From: Closterium sp. NIES-65
Taxonomy: Eukaryota > Streptophyta > Zygnematophyceae > Desmidiales > Closteriaceae
Reading direction: 5' to 3'
NCBI GenBank assembly: GCA_948144175.1
Contig: CANXME010000532.1
Span: forward strand, 3,843,001-3,907,000
Length of the DNA stretch: 64,000 bases
A program made the position numbers and the translations under genes. Each line of letters opens with the position of its first letter. The stretch's first letter is position 1. Below the pieces are notes generated by a model. That model was not told where the DNA came from, searched no databases, and worked only from the letters and a program-made list of their open reading frames with translations. This document shows positions 9,275-52,988 of this stretch, in pieces.

Positions 9275-9323
9275 GGTGGGCCCTAAAAAAAAACGGTCCT
9301 TAGGAAGGACCCGCTCTATACCA
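9275..9323 (-). promoter_or_regulatory. PBS and post-PBS stem-loop of Copia-C
   Basis: Element-sense order: TGGTATAGAGC, stem-loop GGTCCTT-CCT-AAGGACC (7 perfect pairs), a run of T, then GGGCCCACC. Confidence 0.75.
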
Positions 9324-9453
9324 TGTGAAACAAGTGAACAGGAAAATGAAATGACTAAGGAAAGATTGGGTACAAATACAACCCTAGAAACCCTGTACCC
9401 CATATGTGCTACCCCACTATAGCCTACAGCAACTATGTCATATAAATCTGACA
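9324..9453 (-). repeat. 5' LTR of Copia-C (130 bp)
   Basis: Identical by eye to 2,061-2,190; next to it is the GCACG duplication at 9,454-9,458. Confidence 0.95.
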
Positions 9454-9458
9454 GCACG

Positions 9459-10675
9459 ACCCTTTTCAACACTCCGGAATGGTTTGCCCAACTTCTTAGG
9501 TATCTGAATAATGTCTGAAGGCTTTTTCTTGACCTTGAAATCTCCCCTGAATTTTTTAAAGGCTTGAAGACCTCGAGAGGGAATATTCTTACTCTCGGGG
9601 GTGTTCGGCTTGAGTTTCCCAGTCAGTGCAGAGTCTTGTTTCGTGGAGCCTTCATTTGTCTCGGCGATTTCCCCTATTGCTGGCCGGTCGTGGCGTTTTA
9701 AATTCGCGCCATCATGTCCTCCTTTTTTCGCCATCATGGATGTCACACTGTTGTTGCCCTGCAGCTCCGCTCGTGCCTTCTTCATTTTCCAACACGCCAA
9801 GAATTGATGTCCTGCTGCGCCGCAAAATTCGCACTTCTCATATTTTGTCGGCCGCTGCTTCGCGTCGATCTTGTCCATATCCATTGGGTCGGCGGTCGTG
9901 GGTGGTGCCGATTGCTTCGTGCCAAATGATCGGTTCGGCACGTGGCGTCGTGTCTCGGGTTCACATCGCATCAGCGCATCGAATCTCTCTGTTGCACACA
10001 CCATGTCGCGGTAGTTGTTGTAGTTCGCGGCAATCACCTATTGGCGGACTTCCATTTTTAGCCCCTCAGTATACGCTTGGATTTTTTCCCCTTCGGTCAG
10101 GTCGGTAATTTGGTTGAAGAGGCTCTCCATGTGCTGCGTGTACTGTGTTACACTGCCGAACTGTTTATGCCAATGAATCTGCTGCCGCGCCATGTAGCTG
10201 GAGTTGATTGGTTCGAAACGTTGAATTAAAGCTTCCCGAAACTGCGTCCATGACCCCTCGCCTCGGATCTTATTGCTATTGTAAATCCACTCGAGCGCTG
10301 GGCCTCGTAACAATGTCGCTGCGAGCCGAATCCGCATTGCATCGTGTGTCGGGGTCGTACAGCCAACGGCCTCGAAGTAAATTTTGAGAGTCGCAATGAA
10401 TCGACGAACGTCAGTGTCTTTTGCATTCGGATTGAACGTCTCCGGTAGCCTCGGACGCGTCGCCTCAAGATTCACTGTAGCTGCTGCCGCTGCTGCTGGG
10501 TTAAGTGTCGGTGTCGCCGCTGCTGCTGCTGACGTCGCTGCTGCATTCGCCGCTGCGTTCGCTGCTGCTATGGCGTCTACCAACTGGTTCGCGTGAAGCT
10601 CCTCTATTCGCTGGAGTGCCGCTCGCGTCTGGTTCAGGCCGGTGTGTAACTCCGTAATTTTTTGTATGGAGTTAT
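9459..10675 (-). pseudogene. gag piece of Ty3-1
   Basis: A Ty3/gypsy-type gag. It has an Ala-rich N-terminal stretch (about 10,500-10,600), a retrotransposon-gag core (LPETFNPNAKDTD, LRGPALEWIY, WTQFREALIQRFEP; about 10,100-10,450) and a CCHC-like zinc knuckle (CEFCGAAGHQFLAC, about 9,810) followed by a basic tail. Its start lies right of the Copia-D insertion (near 14,041) and its far end is cut by Copia-C. One further break is likely. The protein would coat the RNA in particles. Confidence 0.85.
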
Positions 10676-10807
10676 TGTCAAACATTATATATGTTATGCT
10701 TGTGTAGGCTACAGTGGGTTAGCCTATAGGGGGTACACAATTCTAGGGTTTCCTACTTGTACTCATTTCACTGCTAGTTCATTTAATCCTGTTCGCTTAT
10801 TCTCACA
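10676..10807 (+). repeat. 5' LTR of Copia-D (132 bp)
   Basis: Begins TGTCAAACATT and ends CTCACA. One difference from the 3' copy. Confidence 0.95.
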
Positions 10808-10853
10808 TGGTATCAGAGCGGGTCCTTCTACGGACCATTTTTTTGGGCCCACC
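10808..10853 (+). promoter_or_regulatory. PBS and post-PBS stem-loop of Copia-D
   Basis: TGGTATCAGAGC (exact plant copia type, initiator Met tRNA), stem-loop GGTCC-TTCTAC-GGACC, a T-run and GGGCCCACC. Confidence 0.75.
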
Positions 10854-11029
10854 GAAGCGCCCCCCGAGGCGCGATCTTTTTTTTTAGCGACCCCTCGGGT
10901 CGCCATTTCCCCTGCGGCCCCGCCGCCTTCACTAACGCGGCCCCGCCGCCCTCTCTGTCGCGGCCCCGCCGCCTGCTCTCACGCGGCCCCGCCCCGGCTC
11001 CTTCGCGGCCCCGCCGCCTGCTCTCGCGC

Positions 11030-13680: not shown

Positions 13681-13780
13681 CTTCACTTGTACTGTGACAT
13701 ATATATATACCTGCTCTTGCTTGTCTAGTTTTATATATATGTCTGTACTCCTGCATGTGAACTGGCCTCTGGCCCTGCTC

Positions 13781-13886
13781 TTGTGCTCGGACTGTGTGGT
13801 GACTTTGTGATCCACCCTGAGCTTGCTTTGCTTTGCTTGACGGGTCTTGTGACCCCTTGTTCTCCCCCACTTTGCCTATGGGGGTG
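13781..13886 (+). promoter_or_regulatory. 3' conserved block and polypurine-tract hairpin of Copia-D
   Basis: GTGTGGTGAC followed by GTGATCCACCCTGAGCTT (13,807-13,824), then CCCCCA-CTTTGCCTA-TGGGGG, then TG and the 3' LTR. The G-run is the polypurine tract. Confidence 0.65.
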
Positions 13887-14018: not shown

Positions 14019-14044
14019 GTTATCACCATTTTCCTCCATTTGGC

Positions 14045-16163: not shown

Positions 16164-16194
16164 TAACCAGCTGAAACACCTCCTGGAGTTAATA

Positions 16195-17815: not shown

Positions 17816-17820
17816 GAACC

Positions 17821-23939: not shown

Positions 23940-23978
23940 ATTCACCCAAGAACAGAGTAGAACAGCTCTGATACCACT

Positions 23979-27041: not shown

Positions 27042-27171
27042 TGTCAGAATATTATTCTTATGTTCTAGCCTGTAGTGGGGTGCTCTATAGCGAGTACAAC
27101 CCTTCTAGGGTTTGCTATTTGTATCCCCATTTCTGCTAGTTCATTCCTCTTTCTTTCTTCTAATTTTGACA
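27042..27171 (+). repeat. 5' LTR of the non-autonomous element (130 bp)
   Basis: TGTCAGAATATT...TTTTGACA; copy at 28,391-28,520. Confidence 0.92.
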
Positions 27172-27220
27172 TGCTATCAGACCAGGTCGATCCCCCTGGA
27201 TCGATCCTGTGGGTGGGCTT
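27172..27220 (+). promoter_or_regulatory. PBS and post-PBS stem-loop of the non-autonomous element
   Basis: TGCTATCAGACC, then TCGATCC-CCCT-GGATCGA (7 perfect pairs). The stem sequence is unlike those of the full-length copia elements, yet pairing and position are the same. A GTGGGTGGGCTT follows where the others have GGGCCCACC. Confidence 0.7.
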
Positions 27221-27289
27221 ACCACCGCTTAGCTTCCGCTGCTACTAGTGCTACTACTCTCTGAGCCGCACGCCACGTGGCGTGCGGCA

Positions 27290-28390: not shown

Positions 28391-28520
28391 TGTCAGAATA
28401 TTATTCTTATGTTCTAGCCTGTAGTGGGGTGCTCTATAGCGAGTACAACCCTTCTAGGGTTTGCTATTTGTATCCCCATTTCTGCTAGTTCATTCCTCTT
28501 TCTTTCTTCTAATTTTGACA
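28391..28520 (+). repeat. 3' LTR of the non-autonomous element (130 bp)
   Basis: Matches 27,042-27,171 by eye at every position; GTTGG follows. Confidence 0.92.
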
Positions 28521-31055: not shown

Positions 31056-31176
31056 TCAGAAAATGTGAACGAGAATGAATGACTAAGGAATGGAAGTGAT
31101 ACAAATATGCAACCCTAGAAATGTGTACCCCGTATGGGCTACCCCACTATAGCCTACACAATATTATAATTTGACA
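31056..31176 (-). repeat. 3' LTR of Copia-G (121 bp)
   Basis: About 3 differences from 52,989-53,109. It contains a CAACCCTAG telo-box-like motif. Confidence 0.9.
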
Positions 31177-32543: not shown

Positions 32544-32677
32544 TGAGAAGAAGTGAACGAGAATGAATCAACTATGAAAGAAGTGAGTACATATAGGAAA
32601 CCCTGATTGGGTTGTACCCCCTATGGGATACCCCACTATAGCCTACACAAATATATATAAGCTATAATGTTCTGACA
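32544..32677 (-). repeat. 3' LTR of Copia-H (134 bp)
   Basis: One difference from 39,671-39,804. Confidence 0.95.
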
Positions 32678-32790
32678 CACCCCCATAGGCAAAGTGGGGG
32701 AGAACAAGGGGTCACAAGACCAGTCAAGCAAAGCAAAGCAAAGCTCAGGGTGGATCACAAAGTCACCACACATTCCGAGCACAAGTTCAA
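32678..32790 (-). promoter_or_regulatory. 3' conserved block and polypurine-tract hairpin of Copia-H
   Basis: GTGTGGTGAC and GTGATCCACCCTGAGCTT, then CCCCCA...TGGGGG before the LTR, in element orientation. Confidence 0.65.
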
Positions 32791-32889
32791 AGGCCAGAAG
32801 GCCAGTTCACATGCAAGATCATATATAGAGATATACAAGAGGCAAGCAAGCAAGAGCAAGAGTATATATAGGTAAGAGTACAAGCAAGG

Positions 32890-35800
32890 TCAAGAAGTGA
32901 GCAAGTGAGGCAAGACACGCACAAGGCCCAGCTGCGTGCAGCAGCACTGATGATCACAAGGCGCAAGTGCCTTGGTGAAGACATCAGCAATGTTGGCCTC
33001 AGAGGCCACGTAAGCAAGTCGCAACTGTCCACGCTGCTGTAGCTCACGAGCAAGAAAGTAGCGGAGAGCAATGTGCTTTGTCCTGTGCTCCAGTCGCTGC
33101 TCTCGACACAAAGCCAGCATGGCCTTGTTGTCTACGTAAAGGACTCGAGGAGAACGAGGCGGCTCTCCAAGGTCGGTCAGCAGGTAGGTGAGCCAGCGTA
33201 ACTCCTGTGCAGCCATGGCCCCGGCGTAGATCTCAGCCTCACAACTGGAGCCGAGAACAGAAGACGAGCGGGTAGCCCGCCACGAAACAGAGCCGGAGCC
33301 AAGGCTGAAGGTGTAACCCTGTGACGACCGCTGCGTAGCCTGGTCGTCAGCCCAAGAAGCGTCTACGTGCCCTGTGAGGACCACTGGACTCCGCCCTCCA
33401 AGCACTAGCCCCATGTCTGACGTACTGCACAAGTAGCGCAACACCCTCTTCGCTGCAGCCATGTGCTCTGGTCGGTGTCTCCCAGGAGCAACATAGCGTG
33501 CAAGAATGCTCAGAGGGTATGCAAGGTCAGGTCGTGTGCAGGTCATCAGGTACATGAGGCAGCCAACAAGCTCTGCATACGGGCCACTCGACTCTACGGA
33601 CTCATCCGAAGGCAGAGCTGAGAGCGAGTGGCGAGTAGGCAGAGGAGTGGCCTGAGGCGAGGAGTACGTGAAGCCGAAGCGCTGAAGGACCTGCTGCACC
33701 ATGTGTGACTGAGTCAGGGTAATGGTGCGTCGTGCTCTGTCCTGGGTGATCCGCAAGCCAAGGTAGCTGCGCAGTTCACCCAGGTCAGTGCACGTGTGTC
33801 TCTTCTTCAGCTCGGACTTCACGTAGGCGAGTCCAGCAGTGTCAGGTGTGGCAAAGACCAAGTCGTCGACGTACACGAGGATGTAGAACGGCGGCAGAGA
33901 GGTGTCGGTGCGCAGAAACAGCGACGGGTCTGCAGTGGAGGGAGCAAACCCAAGTGCCGCCAGCGTAGTCCTCAGTGTGTCGTGCCACTCACACGGCGCC
34001 TGGCGGAGACCGTAGACTGGACGCCGGAGACTCGACTTGGTACCAGGAGGGAAAGACCCAGTGAAGCCAGGTCGGCGACGTAGCCAGATCTCCTCGTGCA
34101 GGCTGCCCTGCAAGAAAGCAGTGCTAAAGTCGAGAGAGTGCAGCTCGTAGTCACGGTGAGCAGCAAGGTGCAGCAGTACCCGAAGAGTGGTCATCTTCGG
34201 GGTGGGGGAGAAGGTCTTAAAGTAGTCAACTCTCTGCCGCTGACTGAAACCACGAGCCACGTACCGCGCCTTGAAGGCAGGCGGAGAACCCGGCGGCCGC
34301 TTCACCCTGAAAATCCACATGCCACTGACGATGTTCGCCCCAGGAGGGGGAACAGCGTCAACGTAGGTGCCTGTGGACTTCGAGGAAGCCATCTCTGCAT
34401 CCATAGCTGCCTGCCACTGAGAGGAGTAGGGACCCTCTATCGCCTCCGCGTAAGAGCGCGGAGTCGGGATGTCTAGTGCATCCGGGTCTCCCTCAGGGGC
34501 TAGCAGTACAGACGCGAGATGAGGTGAAGCGGCGGCCAGACACTGAAACTCCTCCTGCGTGTCCTCAAGGACGTCCGTGCCAAGGGAACACTCACCCCGG
34601 ACGGACGGAGGACAGACAGACTCAGACTCAGCGACAAGACCAGCAGCGTAGTCTAGACGACAGCGCGCAGCAAAGTCGACGAGCTCAGTGACAAGGGCAG
34701 ACGCAGCAGAAGACTCGAAAGAAGGGTCAGTGACAGCAGTAGCAAGGAGACGCGTGATATTAGGAGTGGCAGCACGAAGAGAGTCCGACTCCGGGTCGGC
34801 AAGAGCAGGAAGAGAGGAAGAAGGAGGAGAATGCAAAGGGGCACGTAGAGGAGCAGTGGACGGACGCAGAGACATCCGGTGCGTGCCAGAGACAGGAGGC
34901 GGACGCTGACGCGAACCGCGACCACTAGTGCGCGCAGTACGAACAGGCGACGCAGGACGAGACGCAGGCTCACGACGCTCAGTAAGACCTCCAGTCGGAC
35001 CAGCGTAGGGAGAAGGAGCAGGCAAAGGGGAGGCAGGCTGTAGCAGTGACTGGACAGGCTGTGGACCCTCTAAGGGAGGAGGAGGAGGACCAGGAGAAGG
35101 TGGAAGACCAAGAACCTGCTGCAGGAGCGGTACGAAGTACGGTCGGGTCCGCGTGGTGACGCCAGAAACAGCAGGGACAGCACCAGTACCCCCAGCAGGA
35201 GTACCCGCTCCAGCAGCACCTCCAGCAGCACCTCCAGTAGCTCCAGAACCCCCAGCAGCGCCTCCAGTAGCCTCAGAAACTCCAGCAGCACCAGGAGCAC
35301 CGCCAGTCGAACCACCAGTGGTAGTCTCAGCGCCAACACCCTCAGCAGCACCAGCTCCAGGCGAACCCGCAGGCCCAGCAGCCCAAGTTCTCCCAGTACG
35401 AGCACCTCCCGGACCCGCGGCAGCAGCACCCTCAGCAGCAGAAGAACCTCCAGCACCAGCAGCACACCTCCAGCGCCGAGCAAACCACTCACGCAGCTCC
35501 TGTGAGGAGAGTGGCTCTCGGCGAGATGAAGCACCCGGAGAAGCTCCAGGCGAAGAACCTCCAGGCTCACCACCCCCAGGCAAAGCACCTCTAGGCGTAG
35601 CACCCCTAGGCTCAGCACCCCCAGGCTCAGCACCCCCAGGCTCAGCACCCCCAGACTCAGCACCCTCAGACCCCGCACCCCCAGGCTCAGCACCCCCAAG
35701 CACAGCACCCCCAGGCTCAGCTCCCGCAGCAGCACCAGAGTCACCAGTGACCTCGACAGGCTCAACCGCGTCTACCTGGGACACACCTGAAGGGGCAGGA

Positions 35801-38798
35801 CCCTGAGGGGGGAGGGGGTCGACCGGGGGGGGACCTGGTACCAAGAAGAGCGGGGTCGGGGGGAGGGACGGAGTGCGGTAGGGGAAGAGGCGGTACTAGG
35901 GTACCGACTCGTCGAACGTGACATCCTGGGAGGACAGAACACGTCGAAAGGTGGGGTGGTAGAACTGCCACCCAGGGGCGTCGGGGGGGAACCCCAGGAA
36001 GACGCAGGGAGCAGCGCGAGGGGACAGCTTGTCCGCAGACAAGTCGCGGACAAACGCCCGAGATCCCAAGACCCGGAACGCCGACGCATCGCCAACCTTC
36101 TCCGTCCACAGCAGGGCTGGGGAGGTCTCCGGCCTAGAGACCCTGGGGTGGAGGTTGATCTGATGCGCCGCGTACCTGACCGCAAACGGCCACAGAAAAT
36201 GGGGGGCAGCCGCATGCATCATAGACGTACGAGCGACGTCCATGACCATGCCAATGCGGCGCTCTGCAATCCCATTTTGCTGCGGTGAGTCCGGAAGCGT
36301 GAAGGTCTGGTGGATGCGTCGCGCACAACAGTAGGCACTCAGAAGGCCAGAGGAGAACTCTCCGCCTCTGCCCAAGTGCAGACGCAACACAGGAAAGTCC
36401 GAGCCAAAGCTCTGCCTGAGCTGGAGACGAGCTGCGCGGATCCAGTCGATCAGCACCTCAGTGACATCACCCTTGCTGCGCAAGGGGAAGACTGTGGTGT
36501 AACGCGAGTAGTCGTCAACCACCAATAGGAAGTAGCGCTCGTGACCGAGTCCAGGGACGCGGGCAGGGCCCCACACGTCCATGTGAAGCGTCTGCAACGG
36601 AGCCTCTGTCGGAGGAAACTGGGAGGAGTGAGGGGCAGCACGCTGGCGCCCCTCGACACAGGGGACACAGGCAAGGCCAGGGCCCTGAGGAAGGGGAGGG
36701 AGGGACCGGGGGAGACCAGACACAAGAAGACGGGAGGCCATGCCTCTGAGCCGAAGTAGGGAGGGGTGGCCAAGGCGGTGGTGCCAGAGGAGGGTCTCGT
36801 GAGACAGACGGCGACACGAACAGGGGGCAGACTCAGGACCAGACCTGGGCGCTGCAGCAAACACCTGACCAGACGAAGAGACCCTACCAGACTCAGCACC
36901 TGGAGGAGAAGCAGTGGTCAGTGTGTACAGGCTCGACCCTGGCTGACGTGTAAACGTAGCCAGGTGGCGACCTGTGCTAGCCTCTGTGCAGTGTGTCACC
37001 CGCTGACGAGCAGGAGTGAACCGGTGGACACCCGCATCCTGTAGGTTAGCACCACTCACCAAGTTCGTAGAGAACGAGGGGAGGTAGAGACCAGACAGGG
37101 TGCCAGGGGAGCCGCCGGACACGGGAGGACTGTGGAGAAACGAGACAGGACAGGACCCCCAGAGGGGTCAGCCAGGGACACCGCAACCGGCCGACTAAGC
37201 GGCGTGAGAGTGATGCGGTCCCGAAAGAAGGAGCGAGACGCCCCAGAGTCAAGGGTGAAGGTGTGAGAGGCCGAAGCCGACACAGTACCTGAGAGTGCAG
37301 ACTCACCAGTACCTGAGAGCACAGACGCACGGGCACCTAGAGCAGCAGCCTCAGTGGCACCTGACGCAGCAGTACCAATGCCCGGGTCGGGCGGGAAACA
37401 CCGGTAACAGTCACCCTCATCACTAACAGTCACAGCATACATGGCATTAAGGATAGCATCAAAGTCAAGATCAAAGATAGCTACACCAGCCCTAGACAGC
37501 TCTCCCCAGCGGGGGATCTCAGAGGCCTCCGGAATTTGCTGGCGCCAAGCGTCGGTCGGGCGGACAAAGCAGCGGCGGGCGGTGTGGGTGCCCCCACACT
37601 GCTCACCCGCGCGGTCGCCGGTGCGAAGGACGTAGGTGCAGGGACCGAACGCCCCACCACGCTGACGCTGCGAGTACCACTCACGGAGCTGCTGAGGGGC
37701 GGGGACGTCGCGAGAGCGCTGCTGCTGCTGCTGCTGCTGGCGCTGACCACCCCCAGTGCTTCTCCGCTGGGACGAGCCACTCCGACCACCTCCACCATCG
37801 CCACCCCCGCCTCCGCCGCCACCGCCGCCACCGCCACCCTCGCCCCCGCCGCTCCCACCGCCACCTCCACCGCCACCTCCGCCACCACCTCCGCCTCCAC
37901 TGCCGCCACTAGTACCTCCACCCCCGCCCCCACCTCCACCGCCACCCCCACTCCCCCCGCCGTCCCCACCTCCTCCGCCACCGCCCCCGCCAGCTCCACC
38001 CGCTCCCTTGCCCCCCTTGCCCTTGCCAGAGCGGCGCCTACCGCTGGGGGCAGACGCCGCACCGACCGACTCTAGACCAGCGAGGTCGGCCGCAGCAGCA
38101 GAGGCGACAGAGGGTAACAGGGGGGAAGGAGAACACCCCTCAAAGATGGGGGTGCGGGGGTCACCACGAGAGGCCCCTACAGCGACTATGATCTTCTCGG
38201 CCGCTAGGAGGGACTTCTCGAGGAGGTCGACAGTGAGGGTGGTGGGACAGACAGAGAGAAACTGGTCCCTAACAGCACGAAGGGACTCAGGGAGACGGGT
38301 GACTAGAAAGTAGAGGGTGATGTACATGGGAGGGGGGTTATCGGCGCAGAAGGCAGCTGGAAGCGCAGCTCGGTAGCGAGTGTCACTAGCGCGCAGGTGG
38401 GTAAAGAGGTCAGCGACTGTGGGAAAGGCAGCAAGGTCAGGGAAGAGGTAAGGTAGCATGAGGCGGCTCAGTGTAGCAGTGGAAGGGGAGGAGTAGCGCG
38501 CAACTACAGCGTCGTACAAGGCCTGAGCGGTCTTGCACTGACTAAAGTGTGCACGCTCAGAGGAAGGGAGGTGGCGACGCACAGCAAGACGTGCAGCAGC
38601 ATCGCGTGTGGCCCACTTGGAGCGATCAGTGGGGTCAGCATCAGCAGGAGGGGCAGGGACAGCGCTAGAGGCAAAGTCAAAGAGAGAGATGTCGTCTACT
38701 GAATCGCACTGCAAGTACAGCTGCAGGTCCTCGACCCAGACCGCAAAGTCAATGGCGCGACCCTCAGCGTCAAAGGCCAGGACACTAGGGGTGGCCAT
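32890..38798 (-). pseudogene. gag-pol coding region of Copia-H
   Basis: From the gag ATG (38,798) to the pol stop (32,890): gag core ([24 protein letters not shown]), a long Gly tract (about 38,030-37,770) with a Gln run, the C-x13-C-x3-H-x4-C motif (about 37,590-37,640), protease LDSGAS (about 37,240), gag-pre-integrase WHHRLGHPS (about 36,780), integrase VVDDYSRY (about 36,510), a GAEPGG repeat linker (about 35,560-35,720), RT with YVDD (about 33,870) and RNase H. About two or three breaks. Same family as Copia-C, G and I. Confidence 0.9.
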
Positions 38799-38919
38799 GA
38801 TAGCAGCCGACAGTCTCACCAGAGAGGAAGGGTCGAGCAGCTCAGTAGAACAGCAACACGGCAGCTCAGCAACTCCGCCGGCCCAGGAGTAGCAGCAGCC
38901 CCACAGGACCCGGCGCTCG

Positions 38920-39540
38920 GCACCGTAGGCGGCTCGGGCGGCTCGGGCGGCTCGGGCGGCTAGGGCGGCTCGGGCGGCTCGGGTGGCTCGGGCGTTCAGC
39001 GGCACGGGCGACTCGGGCGGCTCTGCTGCTCGGGCAGCGCGCGCGGCTCGGGTGACGCGGGTGACACGGGCGGCGCGGGCGTCGTGACGGGCTGCTCACG
39101 GGCGGCTCACGGGCAGCTCACGGGCGGCTGTACGGGCGGCTGCACAGGCGGCACTGGCGGCTCACGGGCGGCACGACGGGCGGCTGCACGGGCGGCTGCA
39201 CAGGCGGCTTGACGGGCGGCTGCACGGGCGGCTGCACGGGCGGTGCAGCTCACGGGCAGCCGAGGGCGGCGCACGGGCGGCGCGTCGGGCGGCGCACTGA
39301 CGGCTTACGGGCGGCTGACGGGCGGCTAAGGGCGACGCGCGGACAGCGCGTGGGCTGCCTGGGGCCTAGCGAGAGGCGCGCGGGCTGATTAGGGCGGCGC
39401 GCGGGCCGCTTAGGGTGGTGCGCGGGCTGCTAAGAACGGCGCGCGAGCTGCAAAGGGTGGCGCGCGGGCTGCACAGGGCCTGGACGGGCGGCGCTCTAGT
39501 GTCTAGGGCGGCGCGCTGGCGGCGTGAGGCCTGAACAGGC
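38920..39540. repeat. GC-rich leader arrays of Copia-H
   Basis: A 9-bp GGCGGCTCG-type run (about 38,930-39,060) followed by irregular 9-12 bp GGCGGCTGCACG-type units to about 39,540. Non-coding. Confidence 0.85.
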
Positions 39541-39624
39541 AGCGCGCGGGCAGCTAAAGGCCAGTCGACAGAGTAAGAGAGAGCCCGGAGTGCGCTCCGG
39601 GCAGAAAAAAAAGTTCGAAGTAGT

Positions 39625-39670
39625 GGTGGGCCCTAAGCACAGTTCCCACAGGGGAACCTGCTCGATACCA
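39625..39670 (-). promoter_or_regulatory. PBS and post-PBS stem-loop of Copia-H
   Basis: TGGTATCGAGC, stem-loop GTTCCC-CTGT-GGGAAC, then GGGCCCACC in element orientation. Confidence 0.75.
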
Positions 39671-39804
39671 TGAGAAGAAGTGAACGAGAATGAATCAACT
39701 ATGAATGAAGTGAGTACATATAGGAAACCCTGATTGGGTTGTACCCCCTATGGGATACCCCACTATAGCCTACACAAATATATATAAGCTATAATGTTCT
39801 GACA
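39671..39804 (-). repeat. 5' LTR of Copia-H (134 bp)
   Basis: Ends at 39,804; AGAGA follows. Confidence 0.95.
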
Positions 39805-40108
39805 AGAGAAGGTCTGAAAGTAGTCAACTCCCTGCCGCTGACTGAAGCCACGAGCCACGTACCGCGCCTTGAAGACAGGTGGAGAGCCCAACGGCCGCTT
39901 CACCCTGAAGATCCACATGCCACTGACGATGTTCGCCCCAGGAGGGGGAACCGCGTCAACGTAGGTGCCTGTGGACTTCCAGGAAGCCATCTCTGCATCC
40001 ATAGCTGCCTGCCACTGAGAGGAGTAGGGACCCTCTACGGCCTCCGCGTAAGAGCGCGGAGTCGGGATGTCTAGTGCATCCGGGTCTCCCTCAGGGGTAA
40101 GCAGTACG
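39805..40108 (-). pseudogene. RT 5' piece of Copia-G
   Basis: About 100 codons at the start of copia [46 protein letters not shown] and [18 protein letters not shown]. Bounded by Copia-H and Copia-I. Confidence 0.9.
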
Positions 40109-40239
40109 TGTCAGATTATTATAGCTGATGCATGTTTGTAGGCCATAGTGGGGTAGCACATATGGGGTACAGTTTGCTAGGGTTGTATTTGTACCCAACT
40201 CTGACTTAGTCAATTCATTCCTGTTCAGTTAGTTTCACA
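40109..40239 (+). repeat. 5' LTR of Copia-I (131 bp)
   Basis: TGTCAGATTATT...TTTCACA, with GGGTACA/TGTACCC arms around CTAGGGTT. Confidence 0.95.
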
Positions 40240-40284
40240 TGGTATAGAGCGAGTCCCTCCTAAGGACCGTTCTTTGGGCCCACC
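40240..40284 (+). promoter_or_regulatory. PBS and post-PBS stem-loop of Copia-I
   Basis: TGGTATAGAGC, a short stem GTCC-CTCCTAA-GGAC, then GGGCCCACC (40,276-40,284). Confidence 0.65.
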
Positions 40285-40559
40285 CACGATTTTTTTTTTC
40301 CTGCCCGGAGCGCGCCCTATTCTCCCCGAGGCGCGCTCCCCCTAGTGCGCGTCGAGCTGCCCTTGTGGCGCCCCGAGAGTCGCGCGCGCGACTCATTTTT
40401 TTCGCGCGCGCGGCCCAGGCCCCACTTCGCGCGGCCCTTACAGCCGCGCCGCGCCGCCCTCTCGGCTCTGCCGCGCCGCGCCGCCCTCAAGACGGCCGCG
40501 CGGCCTCTTCGTCGCTGCACCAGGCCCCCCCCGCTGCACCTCTGTCGGCCCCGCAGCCG

Positions 40560-41390
40560 CCTTACCTGACGGCCGCCGCCTCACCTGACGGCCCGCCGCC
40601 TCGACTTCTGGCCCGCCACCTCACCAGACGGCCCCCCCGCCTCACCTGACGGCCCACCGTCTCACCTGCTGGCCCGCCACCTTACCTGACGGCCCCGCCG
40701 CCTCACCTGACGGCCCGCCGCCACCTTACCTGACGGCCCCGCCGCCTCACCTGACGGCCCGCCGCCTCACCTACTGGCCCGCCACCTGACCTGACGGCCC
40801 CGCCGCCTCACCTGACGGCCCGCCGCCTGACCTGCTGGCCCGCCACCTCACCTGACGGCCCGCCGCCTCACCCGCTGGCCCGCCACCTGACCTAACGGCC
40901 CCGCCGCCTCACCTGCTGGCCCGCCACCTGACCTGACGGCCCCGCCGCCTCACCCGACGGCTCGCCACCTCGCCTACTGGCCCGCCACCTGACGGCTCCG
41001 CCGTCCCCTGTCCCGGCCCCGCCGCTGCACCCTGACGGCCCCCCCGTCCCCTGCCCCAGCCCCGCCGCTGCACCCTGACGGCCCCGCCGTCCCCTGTCCC
41101 GGCCCCGCAGCTGCACCCTGACGGCCCCGCCGAGCCGCCCAGCAGCAGCCGAGCCGCCCAGCCGCAGCCGAGCCGCCCAGCAGCAGCTGAGCCGCCCAGC
41201 AGCAGCCGCGCCGCCCAGCAGCAGCCGAGCCGCCCTGCCGCAGCCGAGCCGCCCAGCAGCAGCCGAGCCGCCCAGCAGCAGCCGAGCCGCCCAGCAGCAG
41301 CCGAGCCGCCCGGTACCCGAGCTACCCGAGCCGCCCGAGCCGCCCGAGCCGCCCGAGCCGCCCGACTCAGCCCGAGCTGCCTGCTGCTGT
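40560..41390. repeat. GC-rich leader arrays of Copia-I
   Basis: Three successive arrays: about 20-bp CACCTGACGGCCCCGCCGCC-type units (40,565-41,120), 19-bp GAGCCGCCCAGCAGCAGCC units (41,125-41,310) and 9-bp GAGCCGCCC units (41,325-41,375). Gag starts 45 bp after the last one. Confidence 0.9.
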
Positions 41391-41433
41391 CCTACCCGAC
41401 TCTCCTAGCCCGGTGAGACTTTCAGCTGCTGCC

Positions 41434-42507
41434 ATGGCCACCCCCAATGTTCTTACTTTTGACGCTGAGGGGAGGGCCATTGACTTTGCCGTCTGGATTG
41501 AAGACCTGCAGCTGTACTTACTGTGTGATGCGATAGATGAGGTCTCTCTCTTTGACTTTGTCTCTGGCGCTGTCCCTGCCCCGCCTGCTGATGCTGACTC
41601 TGCTGCTCGCTCCAAGTGGGCGACCCGCGATGCTGCTGCACGTCTTGCTGTGCGTCGCCACCTCCCTTCCTCTGAGCGTGCCCACTTTAGTCAGTGCAAG
41701 ACCGCTCAGGCCTTGTACGACGCTGTAGTTGCACGCTACTCCTCCCCTTCCTCCGCTACCCTTAGCCGCCTCATGCTACCGTTTCTCTTCCCTGACCTCG
41801 CTTCCTTTCCCACTGTTGCTGACCTAGTTACCCACCTCCGCGCTAGTGACACCCGCTACCGTGCTGCCCTTCCTGCTGAGTTCCGCGCTGCGAACCCTCC
41901 TCCCATGTACATCACTCTCTACTTTCTCGTCACCCGTCTCCCTGAGTCCCTTCGTGTCGTTAGGGACCAGTTTCTCTGTGTCTGTCCCACCACTCTCAGT
42001 GTCGACCTCCTTGAGGAGTCCCTGCTAGCGGCTGAGAAGAGTATTGTCGCTGTAGGGGCCTCTCGGGGTGACCCTCGCACCCCCATCTTTGAGGGGTGTG
42101 GTCCTTCCCCCCTGCTACCCTCTGTCGCCTCTGCCGCTGCGGCTGACCTCGCTGGTTTTGAGTCGGTCGGCGCGGCGTCTGCCCCCAGCGGCAGACGCCG
42201 CTCTGGCAAGGGCAAGGGGGGCAAGGGAGCGGGTGGAGCTAGAGGGGGCGGTGGAGGAGGCGGTGGGGGCGGAGGGGGGAGTGGGAGTGGCGGTGGGGGT
42301 GGTGGCGGGAGTGGAGGTACTAGTGGCGGCGGTGGAGGCGGAGGTGGCGGCGGAGGTGGTAGCGGAGGAGGCGGTGGGAGCGGTGGGAGCGACGGTCCTG
42401 GTGGGGGAGGTGGCGGTGGAGACGGGGGTGGCGGTGGAGGCGGGGGTGGCGGTGGAGGCGGGAATCGGAGTGGCTCGTCCCAGCGGAGCAGCTCTGGGGG
42501 TGGTCAG

Positions 42508-42548
<41 letters not shown>

Positions 42549-45500
42549 GCAGCAGCAGCAGCGCTCTCGCACCGTCCCCGGCCCTCAGCAGCTCCGTGAG
42601 TGGTACTTGCAGCGTCAGCGCGGTGGTGCACTTGGTCCCTGCCCCTACGTTCTTCGCACCGGTGACCGTGCGGGGGAGAGGTGTGGGGGCGCCCACACAG
42701 CCCGTCGCTGCTTTGGCCGCCTGACCGACGCCTGGCGTCAGCAGTTTCCGGAGGCCGCTGAGATCCCCCGCTGGGGAGAGCTGTCTAGGGCTGGAGTAGC
42801 TATTTATGATCTTGACTTTGATGCTATTCTCTCTGCTATGTATGCTGTGACTGGTAGTGATGAGGATGACTGTTACCGGTGTTTCCCGCCCGACCCGGGC
42901 ATTGGTACTGCCGCGTCAGGTACTAGTGAGGCTGCAGCTCTAGGTGCCAGTGCGTCTGTGCTCTCAGGTGCTGGTGAGTCCGCGCTCTCAAGTACTGTGT
43001 CGGCTTCGGCCTCTCACACCTTCACCCTTGACTCTGGAGCGTCTCGCTCCTTCTTTAGGGACCGCACCACTCTCACGCCGCTGAGTCGGCCGGTTGCGGT
43101 GTCCCTGGCTGACCCCTCTGGGGGACCTGTCCTGTCTCGCTTCTCCACTGTCCTCCCGTGTCCAGCGGCCCCCTCTGGCACCCTGACTGGTCTCTACCTC
43201 CCCTCGTTCTCGACGAACTTGGTGAGTGGTGCTGACCTCCAGGATGCTGGTGTCCACCAGTTCACCCCTGCTCGTCAGCGGGTGACCCACTGTACGGAGG
43301 CGGATACAGGTCGTCACCTGGCTACGTTTACACGTCGGCCAGGGTCGAGCCTGTACACACTGACCACTGCTTCTCCTCCAGGTGCTGCGTCTGGTAGAGT
43401 CCCTTCGTCTGGTCAGGTGTTTGCTGCAGCGTCCAGGTCTGGTCCTGAGTCTGCCCCCTGTTCGTGTCGTCGTCTGTCTCATGAGACCCTCCTCTGGCAC
43501 CACCGCCTTGGCCACCCCTCTCTGCTTCGGCTCAGAGGCATGGCCTCGCGGGTCCTTGTGTCTGGTCTTCCCCGGTCCCTCCCTCCCCTTCCTCCGGGCC
43601 CTGGCCCTGCCTGTGTCCCCTGTGTCGAGGGGCGCCAGCGTGCTGCCCCTCACTCCTCCCAGTTTCCTCCGATAGAGGCCCCGTTGCAGACGCTTCACAT
43701 GGACGTGTGGGGCCCAGCCCGCGTCCGTGGACAGGGTCAGGAGCGCTACTTCCTGCTGGTGGTTGACGACTACTCGCGTTACACCACAGTCTTCCCCTTG
43801 CGCAGCAAGGGTGAGGTCACTGAGGTGTTGATCGACTGGATCCGCGCAGCTCGTCTTCAGCTTCGGAGGAGCTTTGGCTCTGACTTCCCTGTTTTGCGTC
43901 TGCACTCGGACAGAGGCGGAGAGTTCTCCTCTGGCCTCCTGAGTGCCTACTGTCGTGTGCGAGGCATCCGTCAGACCTTCACGCTTCCGGACTCACCACA
44001 GCAGAATGGGATTGCTGAGCGCCGCATTGGCATGGTCATGGACGTCGCTCATACGTCCATGATGCATGCGGCTGCTCCCCATTTTCTGTGGCCGTTTGCG
44101 GTCAGGTACGCTGCGCACCAGATCAACCTCCACCCCAGGGTCTCTCGACCAGAGACCTCCCCAGCCCTGCTGTGGACGGGGAAGGTTGGCGATGCGTCGG
44201 CGTTCCGGGTCTGGGGATCTCGGGCGTTTGTTCGCGACCTGTCTGCGGACAAGCTGTCCCCTCGTGCTTCTCCCTGCGTCTTCCTGGGGTTCCCCCCCGA
44301 CGCCCCTGGGTGGCAGTTTTACCACCCCACCTCTCGACGTGTTCTGTCCTCCCAGGACGTCACGTTCGACGAGTCGGTACCCTACTACCGCCTCTTCCCC
44401 TACCGCACTCCGTCCCTCCCCCCGCCCCCGCTCTTCTTGGTACCAGGCCCCCCCCCGGTAGTCCCCCTCCCCCCTCAGGGTCATGCCCCTTCAGGTGTGT
44501 CCCAGGTAGACGCGGTCGAGCCTGTCGAGGTCACTGGTGACTCTGGTGCTGCTGCGGGAGCTGAGCCTGAGGGTGCGGGGTCTGGGGGTGCTGAGCCTGG
44601 GGGTACTGTGCCTGGGGGTGCTGAGCCTGGAGGTGTCGAGCCTGGGGGTGCTGTTCCTGGGGGTGCTGAGCCTGGGGGTGCTGAGCCTGGGGGTGCTGAG
44701 CCTGGGGGTGCTGAGCCTAGGGGTGCTGAGCCTGGGGGTGCTGTGCCTGGGGGTGCTGAGCCTGGGGGTGCTGAGCCTGGGGGTGCTTCGTCTCGCCGGG
44801 AGCCACTCTCCCCACAGGAGCTGCGTGAGTGGTTTACCAGGCGCTGGAGGCGTGCTGCTGGTGCTGGTGGTTCTTCGCCTGCAGTGGGTACTGCTGCCGT
44901 GCGTCCCGACAGTGCTCGTACTGTGGGTGCTGGAGCTGCTCGGTCTGAGGGTTCTCTTGGAGCTGGTGCTGCTGAGGGTGTTGGCGCTGAGTCTGCCGCT
45001 GGTGGTCCGACTGATAGTGCACCTGGTGCTGCTGCTGGGGGTTCTGGAGCTTCTGGAGGTGCTGCTGGAGGTGCTGCTGGCGTGGGTGCTCCTGACGGGG
45101 GGACTGGTGCTGTTCCTGCTGTTTCTGGTGTCGCCGCGCGGCCCCGACCGTACTTCGTTCCGCTCCTGCAGCAGGTTCTTGGTCTTGCACCTCCTCCTGC
45201 TCCCTTAGAGGGTCCGCAGCCTGTTCGGTCACAGCCACACCTACAGCCTGCCTCCCCTTTACCTGCTCCTTCTCCCTACGCTGGTCCGACTGGAGGTCTT
45301 ACTGAGCGTCGTGAGCCTGCGTCTCGTCCTGCGTCGCCTGTTCGTACTGAGCGCGCTAGTGGTCGTGGTTCGCGTCAGCGTCCTCCTCCTGTCCCTGGCA
45401 CGCACCGGATGTCACTGCGTCCGTCCACTGCTCCTCTGCGTGCCCCTTTGCCTTCTCCTCCTGCTTCCTCTCTTCCTGCTCTTGCCGACCCTGAGTCGGA

Positions 45501-47394
45501 CTCTCTTCGCGCTGCCAGTCCTACTGTCACGCGTCTCCTTGCTACTGCTGTCACTGACCCTTCCTTTGAGTCGTCTGCTGCGTCTGCCCTTGTCACTGAG
45601 CTTGTCGACTTTGCTGCGCGCTGTCGTCTAGACTACGCTGCTCGTCTTGTCGCTGAGTCTGAGTCTGCCTGTCCTCCGTCCGTCGGGGGTGAGTGTGCCC
45701 TTGGCACGGACGTCCTAGAGGACAGGCAGGAGGAGTTACAGTGTCTAGCGGCTGCTTCACCTCATCTCGCGTCTGTACTGCTTGCCCCTGAGGGAGACCC
45801 GGATGCACTAGACATCCCGACTCCGCGTTCTTATGCGGAGGCTGTAGAGGGTCCCTACTCCTCTCAGTGGCAGGCAGCTATGGATGCAGAGATGGCTTCC
45901 TGGAAGTCCACAGGCACCTACGTTGACGCTGTTCCCCCTCCTGGGGCGAACATCGTTAGTGGCATGTGGATCTTCAGGGTGAAGCGGCCGCCGGGCTCGC
46001 CGCCTGTCTTCAAGGCGCGTTACGTGGCTCGTGGCTTCAGTCAGCGGCAGGGAGTTGACTACTTTCAGACCTTCTCTCCCACCCCAAAGATGACCACTCT
46101 TCGGGTGCTGCTGCACATTGCCGCTCAGCGCGACTACGAGCTTCACTCCCTCGACTTCAGCACTGCGTTCCTGCAGGGTAGCCTGCACGAGGAGATCTGG
46201 CTGCGCCGTCCGCCTGGCTTCACTGGGACTTTCCCTCCTGGCACCCAGTGGAGCCTCCGACGGCCAGTCTACGGTCTCCGCCAGGCACCGCGTGAGTGGC
46301 ACGACACACTGAGGACTACGCTTGCGGCTCTTGGGTTTGCTCCTTCTACTGCTGACCCGTCGCTGTTTCTTCGCACCGACACTTCCCTGCCGCCGTTCTA
46401 CATCCTCGTGTACGTCGACGACTTGGTCTTTGCCACAGCGGACACTGCTGGACTCGCCTACGTGAAGTCCGAACTGCTGAAGAGACACACGTGCACAGAC
46501 CTGGGTGAACTGCGCAGCTACCTTGGCTTGCAGATCACTCGGGATAGAGCACGTCGCACCATTACCCTGACTCAGTCACACATGGTGCAGCAGGTCCTTC
46601 AGCGCTTCGGCTTCACGTACTCCTCGCCTCAGGCCACTCCTCTGCCTACTCGCCACTCACTCTCAGCTCTGCCTTCGGATGAGTCCGTAGAGTCGAGTGG
46701 TCCGTATGCAGAGCTTGTTGGCTGCCTCATGTACCTGATGACCTGCACACGTCCTGACCTTGCATACCCTCTGAGCATTCTTGCACGCTATGTTGCTCCT
46801 GGGAGACACAGACCGGAGCACATGGCTGCAGCGAAGAGGGTATTGCGCTACCTGTGCAGTACGTCGGGTATGGGGCTAGTGCTTGGAGGGCGGAGTCCAG
46901 TGGTCCTTACCGGCCACGCGGACGCTTCTTGGGCTGACGACCAGGCTACGCAGCGGTCGTCACAGGGTTACACCTTCAGCCTTGGTTCCGGTTCTGTCTC
47001 GTGGCGGTCTACTCGCTCGTCTTCGGTTCTCGGCTCCAGTTGTGAGGCTGAGATCTACGCCGGGGCCATGGCTGCACAGGAGCTTCGCTGGCTCACCTAC
47101 TTGCTGACCGACCTTGGAGAGCCGCCTCGTTCTCCTCCAGTGCTGTACGTAGACAACAAGGCCATGCTGGCCTTGTGTCGAGAGCAGCGCTTGGAGCACA
47201 GAACGAAGCACATTGCTCTCCGCTACTTCCTTGCTCGTGAGCTGCAGCAGCGTGGTCAGTTGCGACTTGCTTACGTGGCCTCTGAGGCCAACACTGCTGA
47301 TGTGTTCACCAAGGCACTTGCGCCTTGTGACCATCAGCGCTTTTGTACCCAGCTGGGTCTTGTACCTGTCTTGCCTCACTTGCTCTCTTCTTGA
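41434..47394 (+). CDS. gag-pol polyprotein of Copia-I (1,986 aa)
   Basis: I chose the ATG at 41,434 because [14 protein letters not shown] matches the start of gag in the sister copies. Rough residue order: gag core 1-250; Gly tract about 270-350; Gln run about 365-385; C-x13-C-x3-H-x4-C about 402-426; protease LDSGAS about 532; gag-pre-integrase WHHRLGHPS about 688; integrase VVDDYSRY about 776 and SDRGGEF about 825; GAEPGG repeat linker about 1,040-1,110; RT about 1,465-1,730 with YVDD about 1,659; RNase H to the end with [10 protein letters not shown] about 1,826 and VDNKAML about 1,905. It encodes all enzymes for particle formation, copying and insertion. Its length is above the usual 1,300-1,500 aa of copia because of the low-complexity parts. 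Confidence 0.95.
44530..44790 (+). repeat. 15-bp coding minisatellite in the Copia-I linker
   Basis: About fifteen units of GCTGAGCCTGGGGGT (Ala-Glu-Pro-Gly-Gly) between integrase and RT. The same array in other lengths is found in Copia-C (about 4,960-5,260), D (about 11,030-11,130), G (about 48,690-48,960) and H (about 35,560-35,720). Confidence 0.92.
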
Positions 47395-47494
47395 CTTTAC
47401 TTGTACTTTGTCATATATATACCTGCTCCTGCTTGTCTAGTTTTATATATATGTCTGTACTCCTTCATGTGAATTGGCCTCTGGCCCTGCTCTT

Positions 47495-47603
47495 GTGCTC
47501 GGACTGTGTGGTGACTTTGTGATCCACCCTGAGCTTGCTTTGCTTTGCTTTGCTTGACTGGTCTTGTGACCCCTTGTTCTCCCCCACTTTGCCTATGGGG
47601 GTG
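47495..47603 (+). promoter_or_regulatory. 3' conserved block and polypurine-tract hairpin of Copia-I
   Basis: GTGTGGTGAC and GTGATCCACCCTGAGCTT (about 47,519-47,537), then CCCCCA-CTTTGCCTA-TGGGGG before the LTR. A TGCTT repeat lies between. Confidence 0.65.
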
Positions 47604-47734
47604 TGCCAGATTATTATAGCTGATGCATGTTTGTAGGCCATAGTGGGGTAGCACATATGGGGTACAGTTTGCTAGGGTTGTATTTGTACCCAACTCTGAC
47701 TTAGTCAATTCATTCCTGTTCAGTTAGTTTCACA
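47604..47734 (+). repeat. 3' LTR of Copia-I (131 bp)
   Basis: One difference from the 5' LTR; GTACG follows at 47,735-47,739. Confidence 0.95.
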
Positions 47735-50700: not shown

Positions 50701-52002
50701 TCAAGATCAAAGATAGCTACGCCTGCCCTAGACAGCTCTCCCCAGCGGGGGATCTCACTAGCCTCCGGGAACTGCTGACGCCAAGCGTCCGTCAGGCGGC
50801 CAAAGCAGCGCTGGGTGGGTTGAGCACCCCCACACTGCTCACCCGCGCGGTCGCCGGAGCGGAGGACGTAGGTGCACGGGCCAAAACCCCCACCACGCTG
50901 ACGCTGCGTGTACCACTCACGGAGCTGCTGAGGAGGGGGGATGTCTCGAGAACGCTGCTGCTGCTGGCGCTGACCACTCCCGGAGCCGCTCCGCTGAGAA
51001 GTACCACCCTGACCAGCTCCACCTCCACCACCACCGCCGCCTCCACCTCCGCCGCCACCGCCGCCTCCGCTCCCACCGCTACCGCCACCGCCGCCTCGGC
51101 CTCCGCCGCTGCCACCGCCACCTCCACCCCTGCCACCACTCCCACGGCCACCCCCACTCCCCCCGCCGCCCCCACCGCCACCTCCACCACCCCCGCTAGC
51201 CCCACCCGCGCCCTTGCCCCCCTTGCCCTTGCCAGAGCGGCGTCTCCTGCTAGGGGCAGACGTCGCACCGACCGACTCAAGATCAACGAGGTCAGTCGCA
51301 GCAGCAGAGGCGACAGAGGGCAAAAGGGGGGAAGGGGAACACCCCTCAAAGATGGGGGTGCGAGGGTCACCACGAGAGGCTCCTACAGCGACTATGCTCT
51401 TCTCCACTGCGAGGAGGGCCTTCTCTAGGAGGTCAATAGTGAGAGTGGTGGGACAGACTGAGAGGAAGTGGTCCCTGACTACGCGAAGGGAGTCAGGGAG
51501 GCGAGTGACTATATAATAGAGTGATGTACATGGGGGGGGGATTCTTGGCGCAGAACTCAGCAGGAAGTGCGGCGCGGTAGCGAGTGTCACTAGTGCGGAG
51601 GTACGTAACCAGGTCAGCGACTGTGGGAAAGGCAGCAAGGTCAGGAAAGAGGTACGGTAGCATGAGGCGGCTCAGTGCAGCAGTGGCAGGGGAAGAGTAG
51701 CGCGCAACTACAGCATCATACAAGGTCTGAGCACTCTTGTACTGACTAAAGTGCGCGCGCTCAGAGGTAGGTAGGTGGCGACGCACAGCAAGACGTGCAG
51801 CAGCATCGCGCGTGGCCCACTGGGAGCGAACAGTGGGGTCACCATCAGCAGCAGGGGCAGGAGAGGCGCCAGAGGTGAGGTCAAAGAGGGAGAGACCGTC
51901 TGCCCTATCGCACTGTAAGAAGAGCTGCAGGTTATCTACCCAAACCTCAAAGTCAATGGCTTGACCCTCAGCGTCAAAAGCGAGAACGCTAGGGGAAGCC
52001 AT
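47735..52002 (-). pseudogene. gag to linker region of Copia-G
   Basis: Encodes, from the gag ATG (52,002) downward: the gag core, a Gly tract (about 51,000-51,230), the C-x13-C-x3-H-x4-C motif (about 50,810-50,880), protease LDSGAS (about 50,475), gag-pre-integrase WHHRLGHPS, integrase (VVDDYSRY about 49,740; SDRGGEF about 49,600), the repeat linker (about 48,690-48,960) and the region before RT. Copia-I is inserted at 47,734. About one break near the gag middle; the remainder is a single frame of about 1,300 codons. Confidence 0.9.
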
Positions 52003-52149
52003 GACAGCAGTAGACTAGTAAGACCAACTGTAGGACAGGGGCAGTGCAGTGACAGAAGCGCTGGTCTCACCAGACAGGGCAAGTCGGGCAGCTCAGTAGT
52101 GCAGTAACACGGCAACACGGCTGCTCGGACGGCTCAGTAGCGACTGCGG

Positions 52150-52800
52150 CTCCGCGGCACTGGCGATTCGGCTGATCAGGCGGCTCGGGCGGCTCGGGCG
52201 GCTCGGGCGGCTCGGGCGGCTCGGGCGGCTCGGGTGGCTCAGGCGGCTCGGGCGGCTCGGGCGACTCGGGCGGCTCGGGTGTCTCGAGCGGCTCGGGCGG
52301 CTCGGGCTGTTCTGGCAGCTCGGGCGGCGCGGGCGGTGTAGGGCAGCAGGGCCGCTGGTGAACGGTGGCGGGGCCGCTGAGTAGGGCGGCGGGGCCGCAG
52401 GAGTAGGGCGCCGGGGCCGTAGGAGTAGGGCGGCGGGGCCGCAGGAGTTGGGTGGCGGGGCCGCAGGAGTAGGGCGGCGGGGCCGCAGGAGTAGGGCGGC
52501 GGGGCCGCAGGAGTAGGGCAGCGGGGCTGCAGGAGTAGGGCGGCGGGGTCGCGAGGTAGGGCGACGGGGCCGCGAGGTAGGGCGGCGGGGCCGCGAGGTA
52601 GGGCGGCGGGGCCGCGAGGTATTGCGGCGGGGCTGAGAGGTAGGGCGGCGGGGCCGCGAGGTAGGGCGGCGGGGTCGCAAGGTAGGGCGGCGGGGCCGCG
52701 AGGTAGGGCGGCGGGGCCGCGAGGTAGGGCGGCGGGGCCGCGAGGTAGGGCGGCGGGGCCGCGAGGTAGGGCGGCGGGGCCGCGACGACGGGCGGAGGGA
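52150..52800. repeat. GC-rich leader arrays of Copia-G
   Basis: A 9-bp GGCGGCTCG run (52,165-52,320), then about 23-bp GCCGCAGGAGTAGGGCGGCG-type units (52,390-52,545), then 21-bp CCGCGAGGTAGGGCGGCGGG-type units (52,550-52,785), each with several copies. Confidence 0.9.
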
Positions 52801-52942
52801 CCGAAGCGACGGGTGGCGGGGCCGAGGCAACGCGCGGCGGGGCCGCTAGGTGAAAGAGGCCGCTAGGGCGGCTCGACGAGGTGAGAGCCCGAAGTGCGAC
52901 TCGGGCGGAGCGCGCTTCGGGCAAGAAAAAAAAGGTCGATGT

Positions 52943-52988
52943 GGTGGGCCCTAGGCACAGTTCCCACGGGGGAACCTGCTCGATACCA
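52943..52988 (-). promoter_or_regulatory. PBS and post-PBS stem-loop of Copia-G
   Basis: TGGTATCGAGC, stem-loop GTTCCC-CCGT-GGGAAC, then GGGCCCACC in element orientation. Confidence 0.75.

Follow-up and report, generated by a model that had tools for sequence, protein, structure and literature searches.

Antisense primer tRNA as the probable source of the leader hairpin and anticodon-arm complement in copia elements of Closterium

Beyond its primer-binding site (PBS), the Ty1 leader carries boxes complementary to the T or D hairpins of the initiator methionine tRNA (tRNA-iMet), contacts backed by mutations in both RNAs (PMC5454406, PMC4974528). Here, the leaders of copia elements with short long terminal repeats (LTRs) were analyzed in a 64,000-nucleotide (nt) stretch of Closterium sp. 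NIES-65 (contig CANXME010000532.1, positions 3,843,001 to 3,907,000; hereafter the window, numbered from its first letter) and in the searched genome of 874 Mb. The window elements belong to the Ty1/copia clade, with the integrase before RVT_2, LTRs of the form TG...CA and a tRNA-iMet PBS. Similar to the extended tRNA-iMet interaction described for Ty1 (PBS, Box 0, Box 1 and Box 2.1), they combine the Ty1/copia order, a tRNA-iMet primer and additional tRNA-complementary stretches 3′ of the PBS. While the Ty1 boxes are separate stretches of 6–7 nt, the Closterium leader can match the tRNA in register through nearly its whole length, anticodon arm included, and, unlike in Ty1, the stem in the Closterium clade seems derived from the antisense strand. 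The evidence below indicates that the leader of this clade is, very probably, an antisense copy of the primer tRNA-iMet by origin.

The lentiviral primer over-extension sequence is likewise a primer-tRNA complement directly 3′ of the PBS and is tied to plus-strand read-through; it is described, however, for products that end at psi55 or m5U54 (PMC13191261), whereas in Closterium the complement extends as far as the 5′ portion of the tRNA. In human immunodeficiency virus type 1 (HIV-1), the A-rich loop makes a second leader contact with the anticodon of the primer tRNA-Lys3 (PMC11181671), and such a contact may also occur in the Closterium clade. The A-loop lies upstream of the PBS and joins loop to anticodon, while the Closterium motif lies downstream and is a 9-nt complement covering the anticodon arm on its 5′ side. 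As for the half-tRNA priming of Drosophila copia and the anticodon-region priming of Ty5, the latter shares the use of the tRNA-iMet anticodon region (PMC5371799, PMC10886601). Unlike in copia and Ty5, the Closterium LTR abuts the TGG of a PBS for the tRNA 3′-end, and the anticodon complement is therefore not the priming site. Helenus, which carries a tRNA-like sequence inside the LTR, was also considered as a parallel and rejected, as the tRNA similarity in the aligned Closterium elements is antisense, internal and located after the PBS. Among the titles and abstract openings listed by searches of an open-licence library, none reported a retrotransposon leader that holds the antisense sequence of an entire primer tRNA, though such a case may be in print.

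A tRNA-iMet pattern built from the plant sequence (linear tRNA numbering is used throughout) matched six places in the genome, with an ARAGORN call of tRNA-Met(cat). The leader motif GGGCCCACC was the exact complement of tRNA-iMet 25–33 (GGUGGGCCC) in the anticodon arm, ending on the first anticodon base, and CTTCCGCTGC was the complement of tRNA-iMet 12–21 in the D arm; in some families, complements of the T-arm side, the anticodon arm and the D arm followed the PBS in that order. A BLAST search of the genome with antisense tRNA-iMet plus TGG gave 34 matches, 32 of which began at query 3–9 and resembled tRNA genes (six checked), where the CCA complement is missing, while two began at query 1 with the PBS. 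Only at two places, the loci L085 and L086, did the complement run in register directly from the PBS, the first bases being lost or changed in other families. In detail, L085 showed 90% identity to antisense tRNA-iMet over query 1–50 with no gap (E 1e-10), and L086 showed 81% over query 1–62 (E 4e-7) and, when gaps were allowed, aligned along nearly the whole length of the tRNA. Since the CCA complement is absent from the tRNA genes and the register continues without a break from TGG into the body of the tRNA, the captured sequence would be complementary DNA (cDNA) of a mature tRNA and not an inserted gene.

Genome-wide counts were consistent with this origin. The 12-nt PBS TGGTATCAGAGC occurred at 17,425 places (8 for a backward-pattern control), was followed by GGGCCCACC after 12–40 nt at 2,409 places (control 0), and by GGGCCCACC and then CTTCCGCTGC at 153 places (control 0), where the chance expectation for a downstream CTTCCGCTGC given the motif was reckoned at 0.06 for equal base frequencies. 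Complements of further arms were found 3′ of the PBS in L028, L086, L092, L110 and the window element at 27172, while most hairpin families had the anticodon-arm part only. In a sample chosen by the exact PBS only (57 rows, 45 distinct, taken as the first places in contig order and so not random), three clade rows reached z 3.7–4.9 against antisense tRNA-iMet and all other rows were at most 2.4. In the short-leader class, the part before the motif matched antisense tRNA at P < 0.05 in 26 of 30 distinct segments. Across 30 LTR clusters, the letters of GGGCCCACC matched the tRNA in 82–100%, as a block more than any other leader part, a match that is partly selection because GGGCCCACC is exact in 75 of the 82 clustered elements and served to find most of them.

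Several results count against the antisense-tRNA origin. Besides the stem base and GGGCCCACC, the commonest hairpin families contain little that is tRNA-like, and likeness to antisense tRNA beyond shuffles, found in 14 of 32 GGTTCC-type but only 6 of 47 GGTCC-type segments, is thin there. Control sequences also scored, with 12 (reversed), 28 (sense) and 33 (complement) of 127 segments vs. 54 for the true sequence; the reversed control reached a score of 34 with the unrelated leader L064, above most true matches; and the z values of motif-chosen rows, 1.5–6.1, were partly owed to the motif itself. Further, a D-arm match downstream of the motif, at P 0.008, was seen in 3 of 39 segments, and the D-arm complement CTTYCGCTG was present in 12 of 82 elements after more loci were added. 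For the autonomous elements of the window, the case for descent from antisense tRNA draws on GGGCCCACC, the collinearity, the stem base GGT...ACC and the intermediates L035, L108, L085 and L086. Recent re-capture of the L085 leader was also considered; the LTR relatives of L085 (39 other matches scored of 389 candidates) end by query position 100, 15 nt beyond the PBS. One of these matches, located 2.3 kb away in the same contig, probably represents the second LTR of L085. Taken as a whole, an account in which the leader came from antisense primer tRNA, was partly eroded and partly refolded, and probably still docks the tRNA appears likely, and stem and motif probably share one origin in read-through of the primer tRNA.

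Stems after the PBS exceed chance. A stem of at least 5 base pairs (bp) was present in 81 of 100 listed PBS-to-motif rows and in 58 of 75 distinct segments, compared with a mean of 20.4 (standard deviation 3.7, maximum 29) in 200 dinucleotide shuffles of these 75; pooled with a second search, 76 of 127 distinct segments had one. The first-pass annotation had described post-PBS hairpins with arms differing between the window elements, and a letter-by-letter check verified the arms (Table 1). A stem was indeed kept in the non-autonomous copy, where it has nine pairs, and the weaker versions attributed to Copia-I and Copia-A were recognized at 40240–40284 and 162–206. The motif, which had been placed 15–25 nt behind the stem, in fact lies 7–11 nt behind it; it is an exact GGGCCCACC in seven window copies, the only places of the exact motif in the window, and a variant, GGGCTTACC, in the non-autonomous copy. 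With one mismatch allowed, GGGCCCACC alone was not above chance in the window (19 vs. 33 expected). When seven window leaders (those of B, C and D, of the non-autonomous element and of the three elements named by their PBS in Table 1) were folded, the stem appeared in the minimum-energy fold of five, in the centroid only for element B, and in neither for the copy with its PBS at 52978–52988, and whole-leader z-scores ranged from −4.19 to +0.26.

The stem itself may be read from the antisense tRNA. The centroid fold of the latter (−26.4 kcal/mol) contains AGGTTTC-GATCCT-GGGACCT, which pairs at seven positions; two of these are T-G wobbles, one being pair 4 counted from the GG-CC base. Among 60 anchored elements, pair 4 was T-A in 16, C-G in 31, T-G in 13 and C-A in none, while 8.3 C-A were expected from the margins; the anchoring rules, GGTY + RAC, kept 60 of 82 elements, limit pair 4 to T/C against A/G and leave C-A as its sole possible mismatch. 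The main arm types, GGTTCCC/GGGAAC and GGTCC/GGACC, look like two resolutions of the wobble, with wobble forms still present. Covariation was tested in the same 60 elements on an LTR-based, weakly resolved tree, with a custom null that relocates the changes of each column independently. For pair 4, P was 0.001 in the association test and 0.007 in the pairing test. Pairs 6 and 7, which alternate among C-G, T-A, A-T and G-T and are mismatched in 15 and 21 of 55, gave 0.013 and 0.031 for association and 0.21 and 0.14 for pairing, respectively; pairs 2 and 3 were invariant, and pair 1 varied on the 3′ side only. A permutation test drew on 235 pooled sequences, 156 of which could be anchored; these gave 34 distinct arm pairs, 26 of them with seven pairs. 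In the 26, 67 of 104 cells in pairs 4–7 were Watson-Crick, compared with a mean of 47.4 and a maximum of 64 among 5,000 permutations uncorrected for relatedness. When the partner arm was slid by one, pairing fell from 0.86 to 0.62–0.63. Related copies in the genome keep a stem with different arms. The claim that compensatory arms carry the signature of RNA structure found support, though less cleanly than this wording implies: pair 4 exceeds the LTR-tree null, pairs 6 and 7 follow by association only and pair 5 does not (P 0.25). Selection on the stem has good but not final support.

How far the stem reflects function and not kinship was weighed against a neutral relic, in which an antisense-tRNA copy was captured once and has since decayed, stem and motif being shared by descent. 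Such decay would fit the fact that covariation is strong at one pair and nominal at two, that some non-partner columns exceed the partners in association value, and that 51 of 127 distinct segments, mostly of shorter-leader classes, have no stem of at least 5 bp. Two further results weaken the derivation of the stem: the minimum-energy fold of the antisense tRNA (−26.9 kcal/mol) has a mirror of the T arm in place of the stem, and a structure-blind run of MAFFT and RNAalifold on 90 of the 127 distinct segments (37 shorter than 22 nt excluded) gave no consensus stem, because stem and loop lengths differ. A decaying relic does not, however, predict the absence of C-A at pair 4, stems of at least seven pairs with unlike arms in window elements whose LTR pairs are 98–100% identical, or a different nine-pair stem at the same place in the non-autonomous family, and we consider it unlikely.

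The motif has a present function with a probability only somewhat better than even, and its most likely use, by analogy with Ty1 and HIV-1, may be as a second tRNA contact. The first-pass annotation had proposed that the self-complementary GGGCCC within it serves dimerization or packaging, by kissing or duplex initiation, and leader palindromes have been proposed for dimerization in Ty1 (PMC5454406). This role is not favored and rates as quite improbable. ACC accompanied GGGCCC at 2,409 of 3,045 places and GGG accompanied CCCACC at 2,409 of 2,701, as expected for one nine-letter unit, with common ancestry adding to both figures; all nine letters match the tRNA-iMet 25–33 complement; and the non-autonomous copy, despite its identical LTRs, does not preserve the palindrome. 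In the seven predicted window folds, GGGCCC was never whole in a hairpin loop, although in two of them part of it lay in such a loop, being placed by element in small hairpins of its own, in pairing with the PBS or in a multiloop. A reading of GGGCCCAC as a DNA target of TCP-type host transcription factors, with the stem incidental, is very improbable: GGGCCCAC is similar to a TCP-binding consensus of plants, but a TCP site leaves the collinear T-arm and D-arm complements and the PBS register unexplained. Variants of GGGCCCACC comprised 293 C-to-T places over five sites and 87 G-to-A places over three, an approximately twofold C-to-T excess per site. G-U pairing with the tRNA would permit such an excess, but it was not taken as proof, as the copies are non-independent, the methylation context differs and chance matches are included.

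For the acquisition of the leader from antisense primer tRNA, the following course is proposed. Reverse transcriptase, copying the tRNA attached to minus-strand DNA, would on one occasion have missed the usual stopping point and continued into the body of the tRNA; a cDNA of the PBS plus the complements of T arm, variable loop, anticodon arm and D arm would have been built into the element and later trimmed and altered by its lineages. Beside the PBS, the antisense strand would fold as AGGTTTC/GGGACCT, with the G-U wobbles turned into T-A or C-G by different families, while the 9-nt anticodon-arm complement, and in some families the D-arm complement, would be retained. Once the tRNA 3′-end has annealed to the PBS, GGGCCCACC may pair with tRNA 25–33 as a second contact, the hairpin separating and presenting the PBS and this docking site. 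Plus-strand synthesis copies the primer tRNA up to modified bases, an unmodified tRNA being copied to its 5′-end, and in lentiviruses the over-extension sequence behind the PBS allows products of somewhat greater length to function, while an HIV-1 product reaching the tRNA 5′-end was reported inactive as template (PMC13191261). Initiator tRNA bears a ribosyl-phosphate at position 64, which would lie just past the 12-nt PBS, and read-through of a tRNA without this group would yield the observed leader. To our knowledge, Ty1 does not normally inherit primer sequence; this and the inactive full-length HIV-1 product speak against the proposed course, and capture must therefore be exceptional.

A one-base-short PBS is common in the clade. 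Of 17 clade places not picked by the exact PBS, 14 had an 11-nt PBS, either TGGTATAGAGC (5) or TGGTATCGAGC (9), in which the C or the A of the middle CA is missing; four other single-base PBS deletions were searched and none was found. Five window elements carry the 11-nt form (Table 1), four of them with 98–100% identical LTR pairs, and exact-PBS counts therefore undercount the clade. Speculatively, a second tRNA contact might make the 11-nt PBS workable. A bolder extension is a self-renewing tRNA mirror, in which the leader is at times rewritten by reading through primer tRNAs that are poorly modified; near-perfect copies such as L085 would then reappear among decayed relatives, and the fresh antisense fold would repeatedly be selected into a PBS-side hairpin and an anticodon-arm docking site that lets the element cope with a PBS one base short. 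We regard this as possible but rather doubtful. If capture of antisense primer tRNA is true, extra primer contacts would have been inherited at once as primer-tRNA cDNA and then pared to the useful parts, not built base by base. The clade would then provide naturally graded leaders, ranging between an almost full antisense tRNA and a hairpin with 9 nt of remnant, in which the importance of individual contacts could be compared. It would also tie leader evolution, in a testable manner, to tRNA modification, the usual barrier to read-through.

The classification of the window elements was supported by their proteins and LTRs. Successive pieces of the open reading frame (ORF) 2402–7735 matched gag_pre-integrs and rve (integrase core), then RVT_2, and RVT_2 was also matched by ORFs of two other window elements. 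The LTRs are approximately 120–132 nt long and end in TGTCA...ACA (three window elements checked). Where the window holds both LTRs, these were 98.3–100% identical in the autonomous elements (five) and 100% in the non-autonomous element, and these copies are therefore young. The element at 31058–53107 contains two others of the same clade, at 32547–39804 and 40108–47734.

Table 1. Leader features and LTRs of the copia elements in the window. Elements that bear no letter are named by their PBS.
Element	Feature	Positions	Strand	Remarks
C	5′ LTR	9324-9453	-	130 nt, TGTCAGA...CACA; partner LTR 2061-2190, 100% identical
C	PBS	9313-9323	-	11 nt, one base short of tRNA-iMet complement
C	Stem-loop 1	9295-9311	-	GGTCCTT-CCT-AAGGACC; arms 9305-9311/9295-9301
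C	GGGCCCACC	9275-9283	-	complement of tRNA-iMet anticodon arm (tRNA 25-33)
C	Second GC-rich hairpin	9254-9271	-	GCGCGCC-CCGA-GGCGCGC; by position, probably equivalent to the D-arm complement of other families
B	PBS	1497-1508	-	one substitution
B	Stem-loop 1	1479-1495	-	GGTCCTA-GCC-TAGGACC; arms 1489-1495/1479-1485; centroid fold only
B	GGGCCCACC	1461-1469	-	
D	PBS	10808-10819	+	exact TGGTATCAGAGC
D	Stem-loop 1	10821-10836	+	GGTCC-TTCTAC-GGACC; arms 10821-10825/10832-10836
D	GGGCCCACC	10845-10853	+	
Non-autonomous	LTRs	27042-27171, 28391-28520	+	100% identical
Non-autonomous	PBS	27172-27183	+	two substitutions
Non-autonomous	Stem-loop 1	27185-27206	+	GGTCGATCC-CCCT-GGATCGATC; arms 27185-27193/27198-27206; 9 pairs, one G-T
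Non-autonomous	GGGCTTACC	27215-27223	+	anticodon-arm complement, two C-to-T changes; G-U pairing with tRNA still possible
Non-autonomous	GCTTCCGCTGC	27232-27242	+	complement of tRNA-iMet D arm
39660-39670	LTRs	39674-39804, 32547-32677	-	
39660-39670	PBS TGGTATCGAGC	39660-39670	-	11 nt
39660-39670	Stem-loop 1	39641-39658	-	GGTTCCC-CTGT-GGGAACT; arms 39652-39658/39641-39647
39660-39670	GGGCCCACC	39625-39633	-	
40240-40250	LTRs	40108-40239, 47603-47734	+	
40240-40250	PBS TGGTATAGAGC	40240-40250	+	11 nt
40240-40250	Weak stem-loop 1	40253-40267	+	GTCC-CTCCTAA-GGAC
40240-40250	GGGCCCACC	40276-40284	+	
52978-52988	LTRs	52989-53107, 31058-31176	-	
52978-52988	PBS TGGTATCGAGC	52978-52988	-	11 nt
52978-52988	Stem-loop 1	52959-52976	-	GGTTCCC-CCGT-GGGAACT; arms 52970-52976/52959-52965; absent from predicted fold
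52978-52988	GGGCCCACC	52943-52951	-	
A	PBS TGGTATCGAGC	196-206	-	
A	Weak stem-loop 1	179-193	-	GTTCCC-TAGT-GGGAC; read from letters
A	GGGCCCACC	162-170	-	

Just beyond the second GC-rich hairpin of element C lies a third GC-rich stem, GCGACCC-CTC-GGGTCGC. The GC-rich arms after GGGCCCACC vary by family (GCACGCC/GGCGTGC in L092) and possibly covary too.

PBS-like sequence was also found before a tRNA B-box-like GGTTCGAATCC, or a close form of it, in repeats resembling short interspersed nuclear elements (SINEs), namely at window 54174 (-) and 15191 (+), the latter PBS having two mismatches, and in L001, L053, L055, L057 and L066; the PBS counts therefore take in some non-LTR places. In L014 (-), near 1154 and 1501, and in L059 (+), at 1736, the PBS seems to be the exact point where copia leaders are joined to a SINE-like repeat (AATGGTCTAGTGGTTGGGATT...GACA), an arrangement suggestive of template switching or insertion. 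In another copia family (L005, L060), a separate hairpin, which in L005 reads AAGTCC-TTTT-GGACTT, lies shortly behind the PBS, and a tRNA complement is absent.

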